This document shows positions 1-3,670 of a stretch of DNA of 64,000 nucleotides, one piece after another; within the stretch, counting starts at the first letter, position 1, and the number at the start of each line of letters is the position of its first letter. The translations under genes were made by a program, and so were the position numbers. The stretch is taken from contig OY992540.1 of the NCBI GenBank assembly GCA_963921195.1, forward strand, positions 60,334,844-60,398,843. The letters are read 5' to 3'. Below the pieces are notes generated by a model. It searched no databases. It was not told the origin of the DNA and saw only the letters and a program-made list of their open reading frames with translations. This stretch comes from Pegoplata infirma (taxonomy: Eukaryota > Arthropoda > Insecta > Diptera > Anthomyiidae).

Positions 1-846
1 AAAACAAGTAAGAAAATTATAGTCGGTCAAGACCGACCATATAATACCCTACACCAGAGTTTCCCGGAAATTGGGTCCCAAGTTCAAACATGGACTGATT
101 AGATCTATATTTTGTCAAATCTTTAATAAGTGTATAAAGCACTCACTTATCAAATTTGAGTGGAGTAGGCTTCTTTTTGTTGACAATAAATCGCTTCAAC
201 TGAATATCGGGCGATATTTCGACATGGGACCTAAGTCCAAAAAGGGTCCGATGATAATCAGATTTGATAAGGATATTATAGTACGCGTTTAACATACACA
301 AACAGAATTTTAATTAAATATTTTATATTTTCATGAAATTTGAGAGATTTATGTGAAAATCGGGAAGGTGGTTTGTATGGGGGCTACAAGAATAACTGGT
401 CCGATTTCTTTATAATTCGGAATGGTGATTTGTATTGATAAAACATGATGACCCGCCGGATTCATGTTAAAGGATTCCTATTTAAATGCGGCTATTAGAG
501 TCATTTGAGCCAAAACTAAAGCGGACCTTTGTATGGGGGCTAGGTCTAAATATGGACTGATTTTTTTTCAATTTCAATAGGCTTTGTCCTTGGACCAAAA
601 GAGGCTTAAGTTTCAAATTTCAAGTCAATTGATTAAGAATACCTGTATCGTGCTTACACCATTTACATGGACAGACGGACGGACAGACGGACGGACGGAC
701 GGACGGACATCGCTAAATCGACTCAAAAAGTGATTCTAAGTCGATCGGTATACTTAAAAGTGGGTCTAGGACCAATATTTCGGGTAGTTACAAACATCGG
801 CACAAACTCATTATACCCTGTACCACAGTGTAGTGTAGGGTATAAC
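1..846 (+). mobile_element. mini-me-like element, family A copy 1
   Basis: A non-autonomous mini-me (INE-1/Helentron-like) element; its left tip may lie before the window. It begins with ACAAGTAAGAAA, followed by the subterminal palindrome GTCGGTCAAGACCGAC and ATACCCTACACC. A (GACR)n proto-microsatellite lies at about 667-709. It ends with TATACCCTGTACCAC and GTGTAGGGTATA. No protein is encoded; short open frames across the GACR tract are artefacts of repeats with few stops. It abuts a second copy head to tail. The assignment rests on known mini-me structure: a conserved core beside TA-rich and GTCY blocks. Confidence 0.85.
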
Positions 847-1693
847 AAGAAAAAAAATAATAGTCGGTCAAGACCGGCCATATAATACCCTACACCGGTG
901 TTTCCCGGAATATGGGTACCAAGTTCAAACAAAAACCGATGGGATATATCTTTTGTTAAAACTAAATTAAGTGTAAAAAAGCACCCACAAACCAAGTTTT
1001 AGTTAATTTGGCTTCTATTTGTTGCAAATACACCGCTTTAACTGAATATAGGGCGAAATTTTTTTATAGGTCTAGGTCCAAAAATGGTCCGATAATAATC
1101 AGATTTGATAAGGTTATTAAAGTACGCGTTTAATACATACAAATAAAATTTTAATAAAATATTTTTAATTTTCATGAAATTTGAGAGATTTTTGTGAATA
1201 TCGGGAAGGTGGTTTGTATCGGAGCTACAAGAAGACCTTCTCCGATTGCTTTAAAATTCAGAATGGTGATTTGTGAATACAAAACATGATTACCTGCCAA
1301 ATTTCAATAGGATACCTTTTATGAAACCGTTGTTAGAGTAATTTGAGGAAAATTAAAAGGGGACGTTTGTATGGGGGCTATGTCCAACCATGGACCGATT
1401 TTTTTTCCAATTTCAATAGGCTTTGTCCTTGGGTCAAATGAAGCTTAAGTTTCAAATTTCAGTCAAATCGGTTGATAATTGCGACCTGTATCGTGTTTAC
1501 ACCGTTACATGGACAGACGGACAGACGGACAGACGGACGGACGGACAGATGGGCATTGCTAAATCGACTCCAAAAGGGATTTTGAGCCGATCGGTATACT
1601 TAAAGGTGGGTCTACGACCAATATTTTGGGTAGTTACAAACATCAGCACAAACTAATTATACCCTGTACCACAGTGTGGTGTAGGGTATAAAA
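847..1693 (+). mobile_element. mini-me-like element, family A copy 2
   Basis: A second family A copy directly follows the first, in the same orientation. It shares the AGTCGGTCAAGACCGG palindrome near the left end, the internal blocks around GGGAAGGTGGTTTGTAT, a (GACR)n tract at about 1513-1549, and the terminal GGTGTAGGGTATA. Head-to-tail copies are common for rolling-circle-type elements. The two copies differ by many substitutions, so this is not a very recent duplication. Confidence 0.85.
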
Positions 1694-2016
1694 ACAAGAA
1701 GAAAAGTTATATTCGACTTGGCCGAATCTATAAATACCTTCCACAATGCCCTTTTAAAAGGATATTAAATTTTTAAAGTGGAAAAATGAGCAATTTGGAT
1801 TTGAAATATTTAATTTTGAGTAAAAACGTTGTTTTTTTATTTTTAGTACCAAAAGGTACATAAAAATAAAATGTATTTATTCGGCCTTTATATATGTATA
1901 TATATTCGATTAGAGTTTTATTCTAGTTCGAGGCCCAAAAATATTTCTATTTATGATATTGTCATAATAGAGTATTTTTAATTTATTGCTTTAAAAAAGT
2001 TACTATCTCATAGTAT

Positions 2017-2063
2017 GTCTGTACTGATCAGTTTCATCCCCACTAAAGGAATCTTCAGCAGAC
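2017..2063 (-). ncRNA. hammerhead ribozyme motif (type I), inverted copy
   Basis: The same core lies on the minus strand of the inverted arm: GTCTG at 2063-2059, CTGAAGA next, CAGAC at 2021-2017. A further minus-strand copy near 2513-2552 is broken because the head-to-head junction at 2552/2553 replaces the first three bases of CTGAAGA. The inversion breakpoint therefore falls inside the ribozyme core. Confidence 0.7.
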
Positions 2064-2590
2064 TTTAGAGAATCATCGTTGGTCAATCAAACATCAAACC
2101 AGACATAATATTTGATATATTTCCCAAGTTATATGAGAAGTACTATTATGAAGGTCCGAAATCTGTTTTCCAACAAAAATAACTCTTTTAAAGCAAAAAT
2201 TGTATATATTAAATCACCGTCGGTAACTATTAATATATGTGTTGCTGTTATTTTACAATAACAACAGTGCCTAACCAAACAATAGTGTTGGTAGGATAAG
2301 TCGTACTAAACTTTGTGTTAAATGTTGTTTTTTTATTTTTAGTACCAAAAGGTACATAAAAATAAAATGTATTTATTCGGCCTTTATATATGTATATATA
2401 TTCGATTAGAGTTTTATTCTAGTTCGAGGCCCAAAAATATTTCTATTTATGATATTGTCATAATAGAGTATTTTTAATTTATTGCTTTAAAAAAGTTACT
2501 ATCTCATAGTATGTCTGTACTGATCAGTTTCATCCCCACTAAAGGAATCTTCTGGTTTGATGTTTGATTGACCAACGATGATTCTCTAAA

Positions 2591-2637
2591 GTCTGCTGAA
2601 GATTCCTTTAGTGGGGATGAAACTGATCAGTACAGAC
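2591..2637 (+). ncRNA. hammerhead ribozyme motif (type I), copy 1
   Basis: The core is complete. Stem I is GTCTG (2591-2595) with CAGAC (2633-2637). CTGAAGA (2596-2602) fits the CUGANGA box. A short stem II follows (TCC with GGA, 2604-2606 and 2615-2617, plus one G-U pair), then GAAA (2619-2622). Stem III is ACT/AGT closing a GATC loop (2622-2631), followed by A2632 as the cleavage-site nucleotide H17. The closing pair of stem II is a T-T mismatch where G-C is usual, so activity is uncertain. The very short stem III resembles the minimal hammerheads of Penelope-like elements, which may act as dimers. Confidence 0.75.
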
Positions 2638-3086
2638 ATACTATGAGATAGTAACTTTTTTAAAGCAATAAATTAAAAATACTCTATTATGACAATATCA
2701 TAAATAGAAATATTTTTGGGCCTCGAACTAGAATAAAACTCTAATCGAATATATATACATATATAAAGGCCGAATAAATACATTTTATTTTTATGTACCT
2801 TTTGGTACTAAAAATAAAAAAACAACATTTAACACAAAGTTTAGTACGACTTATCCTACCAACACTATTGTTTGGTTAGGCACTGTTGTTATTGTAAAAT
2901 AACAGCAACACATATATTAATAGTTACCGACGGTGATTTAATATATACAATTTTTGCTTTAAAAGAGTTATTTTTGTTGGAAAACAGATTTCGGACCTTC
3001 ATAATAGTACTTCTCATATAACTTGGGAAATATATCAAATATTATGTCTGGTTTGATGTTTGATTGACCAACGATGATTCTCTAAA

Positions 3087-3133
3087 GTCTGCTGAAGATT
3101 CCTTTAGTGGGGATGAAACTGATCAGTACAGAC
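3087..3133 (+). ncRNA. hammerhead ribozyme motif (type I), copy 2
   Basis: This is the same 47-nt motif, 496 bp downstream of copy 1 and in the same strand. It has GTCTG, CTGAAGA, stem II, GAAA, ACTGATCAGT, A and CAGAC in order. Spacing of exactly one unit supports a tandem-unit template. Cleavage at both sites would release a unit-length RNA of about 496 nt. Confidence 0.75.
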
Positions 3134-3670
3134 ATACTATGAGATAGTAACTTTTTTAAAGCAATAAATTAAAAATACTCTATTATGACAATATCATAAA
3201 TAGAAATATTTTTGGGCCTCGAACTAGAATAAAACTCTAATCGAATATATATTTGAGTAAAAACTTTTTTTTTAATTTTTGTAAAAAAAAAAAGAAAAAT
3301 TAAACATTTTTGGAGTGTAAAATTTTTTCCTTGTGTAAATTTGTTTTTAGTGTAAAAATATTTTTGAGTGACAAAATTACTTTAAAGTTAAGTAGTTTTG
3401 TGGCTTACCAATGCTTTAAAAGCTCGTCTTTTTTTAACACGTGAATTTAAGGAAATTCGGAAATTCACGGTTTTGCTAAAAACTTTTGAACCACTAGACC
3501 GATTTGTCTGATATTGAATACAAGCTAGACCAGGGGAACGACAAATGTATATGCCAAGCTTCAGCACCCTTGAAATTGTCTTTCGAAAGTTATCGTGTTT
3601 TATTATCTCGTAAATTCGCTAAAGACACTTGCCGAAATTCACTCTTTTGCATATAACTTTTAAACCACTG

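Follow-up and report, generated by a model that had tools for sequence, protein, structure and literature searches.

The window, as we call the whole 64,000-nucleotide stretch of Pegoplata infirma DNA analysed here, comes from a genome of 1.38 Gb and carries at 1828-3251 an insertion made of two head-to-head arms, of ~725 and ~700 nt, of one non-coding 496-nt unit with a GC content of 28%. The insert is flanked on both sides by the 13-bp target site duplication (TSD) TTTGAGTAAAAAC, a strandless feature found at 1815-1827 on the left and at 3252-3264 on the right, where base 3252 fits unit position 124 as well. Unit position 1 was placed at window position 2633, the first base past the proposed cleavage site. 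Compared with this unit drawn as a circle, 1828-2552 is an exact match on the minus strand and 2551-3252 on the plus strand. Direct repeats in the insert have a spacing of 496 and an identity of 100%, the inverted arms 1898-2552 and 2598-3252 are 100% complementary over 655 nt, and the arms are concordant at 495 of the 496 unit positions, the sole mismatch lying at the insert edge. The first-pass annotation had described a 13-bp target duplication around head-to-head arms of a 496-bp unit, and this description is borne out by the exact unit match and by TTTGAGTAAAAAC at both flanks.

Each arm is longer than one 496-nt unit. The left arm (1828-2552, minus strand) covers in antisense unit 462-496, a full unit, and then the stretch to unit 194, with its outer end at a tailed start site, P2. 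The right arm (2551-3251, plus strand) covers unit 415-496, a full unit, and then the stretch to ~124, with its outer end at an untailed start site, P1. At the central head-to-head junction (2551-2553) the arms overlap by 2 nt, TC, and the overlap would be longer if the template was the variant with A at unit 461. One complete unit, from cleavage site to cleavage site, occupies 2633-3128 on the plus strand. Two hammerhead motifs lie on the plus strand, at 2591-2637 (predicted cleavage 2632/2633) and 3087-3133 (predicted cleavage 3128/3129), and a third on the minus strand at 2017-2063 (predicted cleavage 2022/2021). A fourth, at 2513-2552 on the minus strand, is truncated by the junction and is without the 5' strand of stem I, C3 and U4. 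The plus strand of the complete unit also holds two pLTR motifs of Penelope-like elements (PLEs). Motif 1, here GGCCTCGAACT, is found at 2719-2729 (unit 87), and motif 2, here GGCCGAATAAA, at 2768-2778 (unit 136); the second can pair with the first, and P1 lies between both. The tail that follows on the same strand contains a hairpin-forming segment (2780-2819, limits approximate), which is missing from the aligned PLE tails, and reaches its P2 end at AAAAACAACATTTAA (2818-2832, unit 186-200), written in the letters of the tail of PLE locus L086. Near the insert (window 1-1690 and from ~5818), several copies of one AT-rich interspersed repeat, which has a GGAC/AGAC microsatellite and TATACCCTACACC-like ends, were seen by eye.

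A hammerhead descriptor (a 5-bp stem I, CTGANGA, stem II with one base of slack, GAAA, stem III and UH), composed after the motif had been seen, gave three complete motifs in the 64-kb window (+2596, +3092 and -2058), all inside the insert, and 2 matches in total on 100 Markov windows. From the genome copies, 32 motif regions were taken; the alignment consists of 23 rows (22 distinct), the 9 omitted regions being identical to kept rows. In this alignment 92.8% of cells are paired, a share that falls to 33-52% when the partners are slid. Cells changed on both sides number 14 against a shuffled mean of 4.3, with none of 500 shuffles as high; stem I has the double change G-C/A-U, stem II U-A/C-G and stem III U-A/A-U. 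Three pairs are doubly changed, a count reached by 143 of the 500 shuffles, and further pair types number 9, with 327 of 500 as high. Since these last two counts are no better than shuffles, the backing that compensatory changes among the genome copies give to the predicted type I hammerhead fold is good but not overwhelming.

Stem III is palindromic in 18 of the 23 rows, reading ACTGATCAGT in 14, ACAGATCTGT in two (L022, L026) and ACATGT in two old rows (L024:8455, L025:243). The palindrome is broken in the other five (L018, L023, L024:8660, L024:1124 and L025:440). PLE hammerheads are described, in the accessible text of PMC6466107, which cites Lunse 2017, as needing a palindrome in the stem III loop and tandem motifs in order to act as dimers; the earlier suggestion that the self-complementary stem III would suit a dimeric ribozyme fits that description. 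Positions 10.1 and 11.1 are T and T in the window copy, as in nearly all rows, and C-A-G-A replaces C-T-G-A (U4 to A) in 6 of the 23. Judged from the sequence, both features argue for caution over whether the motif may cleave itself.

Scoring with Rfam covariance models, which the first-pass annotation had proposed, matched no family as hammerhead in the window or the insert. Six miRNA-family matches in the insert (best E 2.3e-07; 44 bits, with the gathering score at 100) were set aside as the palindrome read as a hairpin. With Rfam 15 and E up to 5, no hammerhead was reported at 9 loci, seven of PLEs and two of the unit. This silence carries little weight and was left out of the evidence, because hammerhead-like motifs of PLEs of the same genome (L040, L044, L051, L054-L056 and L058) were missed too, and there may be a sensitivity gap for minimal PLE-type hammerheads. 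The full type I core of the first annotation is upheld, though less strongly than it was put there, with the descriptor matches and the compensatory changes on its side and the T/T at 10.1/11.1 and, for the little that it weighs, the missing Rfam match against it. Minimum-energy folds computed for short hammerhead pieces are unremarkable (z -0.4 to -1.5) and do not contain the hammerhead fold, so the case for that fold rests on the comparison of copies. The predicted fold of the whole unit is very stable (z -8.7; L014, z -3.8; a single control stretch, z -1.3). In this whole fold, 78 of 198 changed cells are still paired (39%), against a mean of 35% and a maximum of 55% for base-matched random pairs, and compensatory cells number 12 against a random mean of 5 and a maximum of 17. 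A conserved global fold of the unit is not claimed, as its covariation is no better than that of base-matched random pairs.

A DNA search of the genome with the unit gave at least 20 candidate regions that were scored, grouped as 18 places, the window and 17 others, whose sequences were retrieved. Six of these are head-to-head pairs, namely the window, L011, L012, L013 (arms 10 nt apart), L015 and L020 (two pairs in a row), and their junction sites differ. Four of the six are bounded by TSDs, of 13 bp in the window, 15 bp at L012, 14 bp at L015 and 12-14 bp at L013, where the flank is repetitive; at L011 and L020 none of at least 8 bp was found. L010 is a simple tandem, L009 is one as far as its contig goes, and the remaining copies are single or broken pieces. 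In the window, L009, L010 and L011, successive units follow one another with no ORF between hammerheads. In the old copies L022, L023, L024 and L026 (73-85% identical), if they extend that far, the hammerhead is preceded by the same spacer. The old L024/L025 cluster holds a further head-to-head pair, its arms 45 nt apart and, at L024, 73 and 84% identical to the unit; it was duplicated along with its surroundings. This tandem duplication of ~1.78 kb covers L024:6852-10000 and L025:1-500 and includes, besides the old pair, an ORF rich in proline and glutamine.

Seven PLE ORFs used as tblastn queries (E up to 1e-3) gave no PLE coding match in the window or in L009-L029. Three apparent PLE neighbourhoods were rejected. 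The L024 cluster is the tandem duplication that holds the old head-to-head unit copy, and the RT-like ORF close by is unrelated. The left flank of L010, where a short open frame ending WFDV resembled a PLE ORF end, has many stops upstream, and tblastn found nothing there. L014, considered as a neighbour of an autonomous PLE, has no PLE coding match within 20 kb. At L014:816-870, ~135 bp from the unit copy, lies a second PLE-type end with GACC/GGTC motifs and a tail, perhaps another ORF-less PLE derivative.

The outer 3' ends of the copies fall mostly at two sites. Sixteen of 28 lie at P1 (unit 114-133) and seven at P2 (unit 194-213), together 23 of 28, and the five elsewhere are those of L014, one L020 arm, L023, one L024 arm and L026. 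A binomial figure of 5e-21 for this clustering is only indicative, because the two ranges were chosen after the ends had been seen. End positions may be wrong by about 12 nt if some bases fit both TSD and element (L015), and two L025 ends, the second L024-arm copy and a 48-nt L024 fragment were left out of the tally as duplicates or disrupted. In the window, L012, L013 and L015, one end is at P1 and the other at P2, and both ends of L011 are P1-type. Four of the six unit pairs, the same four, combine a head-to-head form with one tail and a short TSD, and L011 and L020 fit this incompletely.

A protein search of the genome for PLEs gave 2076 first-look candidates, a number that points to an apparently very high PLE load; 89 were scored, and there are many open frames of >800 aa. 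Pfam reported RVT_1 in both distinct PLE proteins scanned and GIY-YIG above cut-off in L032. It did not report GIY-YIG for L054, though L054 aligns over query residues 3-478 of 480. The nearest named record to the L054 protein is from Musca domestica (58% identity over 99%), and the next nearest are from other flies, e.g. Haematobia, Lucilia, Eurosta and Drosophila virilis, an order that points to a fly host, perhaps one close to the Muscidae. A genome search for GIY-YIG gave 5 matches, four of which belong to one PLE family, three as read from their sequence and the fourth as judged from DNA similarity. The strongest match, L030, has a 173-aa open frame and may be a nuclease gene of the cell and not a PLE.

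Of the 20 loci L039-L058, all but L048 have a hammerhead-like core, placed downstream of their ORF or upstream of the following one. Among the distinct PLE hammerhead contexts of this genome, 20 of 21 have the self-complementary ATAT in stem III, unlike the unit, whose stem III is longer, with a 10-nt palindromic strand. Twenty-four distinct PLE ends, selected by the hammerhead-like core, were aligned. All 24 run on to G[GA]CCT[CT]GAGCT, and the tailed ones reach GGTCGAATA, mostly followed by an ACAAC stretch. Fourteen minus-plus PLE pairs within 5 kb were drawn from the 89 scored matches, with one wider C676 pair left out; two pairs with motif 1 missing on one side (L065/L066, L085/L086) were dropped, so that 12 of the 14 were scorable. 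Exactly one arm is tailed in all 12, the left in six and the right in six, counting L063/L064 and L069/L070, where the motif reads GGTCGAACA, the script gave 'no tail' and the right arm was scored tailed by eye. The TSDs of these pairs, measured by the longest stretch matching exactly close to the ends and possibly including about one element base, measure 13-16 bp in 11 of the 12, and the remaining pair lies in a microsatellite.

The unit and these autonomous elements have their end sequence in common. A profile of the PLE pLTR end scores 9.8-10.0 bits at unit 69-150 (~80 nt), and the best of 1000 dinucleotide shuffles scores 2.5; the match is short, the composition-bias term is 16 bits, and the motifs had been noticed by eye before the profile was built. 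The two pLTR motifs occur in order in none of 20000 shuffles, for a pattern that was picked after the unit had been seen. In unit and PLEs alike, P1 lies between the two motifs, which pair as GACC-GGTC or GGCC-GGTC in PLEs and as GGCC-GGCC in the unit. The tail end agrees with PLE L086 at 15 of 15 letters and with L056 at 14 of 15, matches that are singly not significant (E 0.11 and 0.78). The unit tail is ~40 nt longer than the PLE tails, the extra part folding as a hairpin, and unit ~210-455 has no convincing match to any PLE found. From these comparisons, the pLTR end of the unit can be taken as homologous to that of PLEs of the same genome over ~80 nt and at the tail end.

The window element is very probably a non-autonomous PLE, a 496-nt tandem unit that has no ORF and keeps the cis-parts of a PLE: the hammerhead, the motif pair, and the internal start sites P1 and P2, which are adjacent to each other. 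In common with PLEs of this genome it has the homologous pLTR end, the two start sites, one tail per palindrome and TSDs of 12-16 bp, exceptions to which exist. These traits support the earlier reading, a retroelement that carries a hammerhead and resembles the terminal repeats of Penelope or animal retrozymes. The insert displays inverted pLTR-like arms, a head-to-head junction, a TSD and a tail on one arm, so that the simplest account has a PLE protein working in trans on the unit RNA; the ends of the insert suggest that PLE enzymes of the same genome put it in place. A multimeric or circular unit RNA would be bound by the PLE protein, which would cut both strands of an AT-rich target and leave 3' overhangs. 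Each target 3' end would then prime a separate cDNA, the first starting at one of the sites P1 and P2 and the second at the other. The cDNAs would extend upstream, here past one unit length, and would be joined by short homology into a head-to-head palindrome within a duplication of ~12-16 bp. As both arms are longer than one unit, the template should have been multimeric or circular, and uncut at that moment.

On the question of circle or tandem template, the L009 units share private variants at 9 positions within one insertion; at L010 and L020, T and A are mixed at unit 461, against uniform units within an insertion. The inner end of the P2 arm lies exactly at unit 462 (G5 of the hammerhead core) in the window (2552-2553), at L012:1277 and at L015:1293, with different TSDs, and the neighbouring base, unit 461 (U4), is T or A among copies in general. 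An RT stop or a misreading at one RNA base would explain both the unit-462 ends and the unit-461 variation.

Solo pLTRs are known, and PLE copies are often 5'-truncated partial tandems (available text of PMC3846280). The unit could accordingly be a solo pLTR cluster or a 5'-truncated tandem of an ordinary autonomous PLE family that was not sampled, rather than a separate non-autonomous lineage, and, with the best 20 candidates of the unit DNA search scored, there may be an autonomous PLE whose pLTR is closer. We regard this as unlikely in view of the consecutive units with no intervening ORF in the window, L009, L010 and L011, the common spacer of the old copies L022, L023, L024 and L026, and the lack of a PLE coding match in the 64-kb window, in L009-L029 and in 20 kb around L014. 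It is less probable still that the unit is an independent metazoan non-LTR retrozyme with circular RNA, mobilised by LINEs through twin priming and resembling PLE ends by chance. A non-coding tandem hammerhead unit with 28% GC, a TSD and a very stable predicted fold would suit such an element, and both LINEs and PLEs have been proposed as mobilisers (PMC7229834, in part); against it stand the motif pair, the tail end, the choice of P1 or P2, the TSD size and the one-tail form, all held in common with PLEs. A long perfect inverted repeat bounded by a TSD also recalls an ordinary DNA transposon or MITE, a reading with next to no probability, given that TSD length and internal junctions vary between copies, unlike the fixed-length duplications by which the first-pass annotation would have recognised a DNA transposon, that the six pairs have different junctions, that L010, and L009 as far as its contig goes, are tandems with no inverted arm, and that the ends are alternative sites inside one repeat. 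Perfect palindromes can arise in some libraries, and an assembly fold-back artefact is just as improbable, since four insertions have different junctions and TSDs and the same form recurs in the old copy L024.

Read as a non-autonomous PLE, the unit resembles Penelope/Poseidon PLEs (PAc of Anolis, Penelope of D. virilis) in its hammerhead within a terminal repeat, its tandem or inverted pLTRs, its AT-rich targets, its short TSDs, and a tail that is optional because RT starts at either of two adjacent internal sites. It differs from them in having no ORF, in its 496-nt monomer, and in the ~40-nt hairpin added in the tail. The purified PAc enzyme, as described in the available sections of PMC11167929, cuts and extends both strands from two adjacent internal RNA start sites that are non-homologous to the target and match the genomic tail; the start site is no different between strands in that assay, and insertion in vitro is independent of hammerhead cleavage. 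In Adineta vaga, according to the accessible part of PMC3846280, a Penelope element with a host gene between its pLTRs was mobilised in trans, the cis-sequences of the pLTR being judged sufficient, and inverted pLTRs occur head to head, one of the two being tailed, with TSDs of 8-10 bp. In contrast to that carrier of a host gene, the family described here is multi-copy, self-standing and non-coding. Short nonautonomous Penelope elements have also been recorded in heliconiine butterflies, a likeness within the insects, with no structure, hammerhead or insertion anatomy given in the available text (PMC6685494).

Metazoan non-LTR retrozymes are short, non-coding tandem units of 150-450 bp with a type I hammerhead, GC <50% and TSDs >4 bp (Cervera and de la Pena 2020; PMC7229834, in part). 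The unit is likewise short, non-coding and tandem, with a type I hammerhead motif, 28% GC and a TSD >4 bp; it is longer than they are, at 496 nt, and no loop-loop contact was identified in its hammerhead. PLE ends and a head-to-head form receive no mention for metazoan retrozymes in the available text of PMC7229834, which refers in a general way to insect repeats resembling retrozymes. PLEs have been proposed as the mobilisers of animal retrozymes, as a strong but unproven candidate (PMC7229834 and PMC7761336, both in part). In a literature survey conducted without Repbase, in which a published relative may have been missed, we found no description of a fly retrozyme or of a hammerhead unit that lacks an ORF and has PLE tail ends.

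For the template RNA of this non-autonomous PLE, we infer a circular intermediate and a pairing of templates through the palindromic stem III. A fuller version, which we put forward tentatively and hold to be rather doubtful, is that a retrozyme-type RNA serves as a paired template mobilised by PLEs. Two unit RNAs would dimerise through stem III, a PLE dimer would start cDNAs at P1 and P2, each would roll past one unit, and the two would be joined head to head. If the same stem III contact paired the two templates, two cDNAs per insertion would follow, as a conjecture. If this paired-template reading is true, the hammerhead would serve template pairing as well as cleavage, and one-tail palindromes in PLEs generally would be explained.

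That all 12 scorable PLE palindromes join a tailed to an untailed arm sets a constraint on models of how PLEs integrate. The unit adds genomic evidence for a link between retrozymes and PLEs, put forward as a hypothesis only in the literature consulted. The shared end sequence, start sites, tail choice and palindrome form make the question of the retrozyme mobiliser testable with purified PLE protein and the 496-nt RNA.
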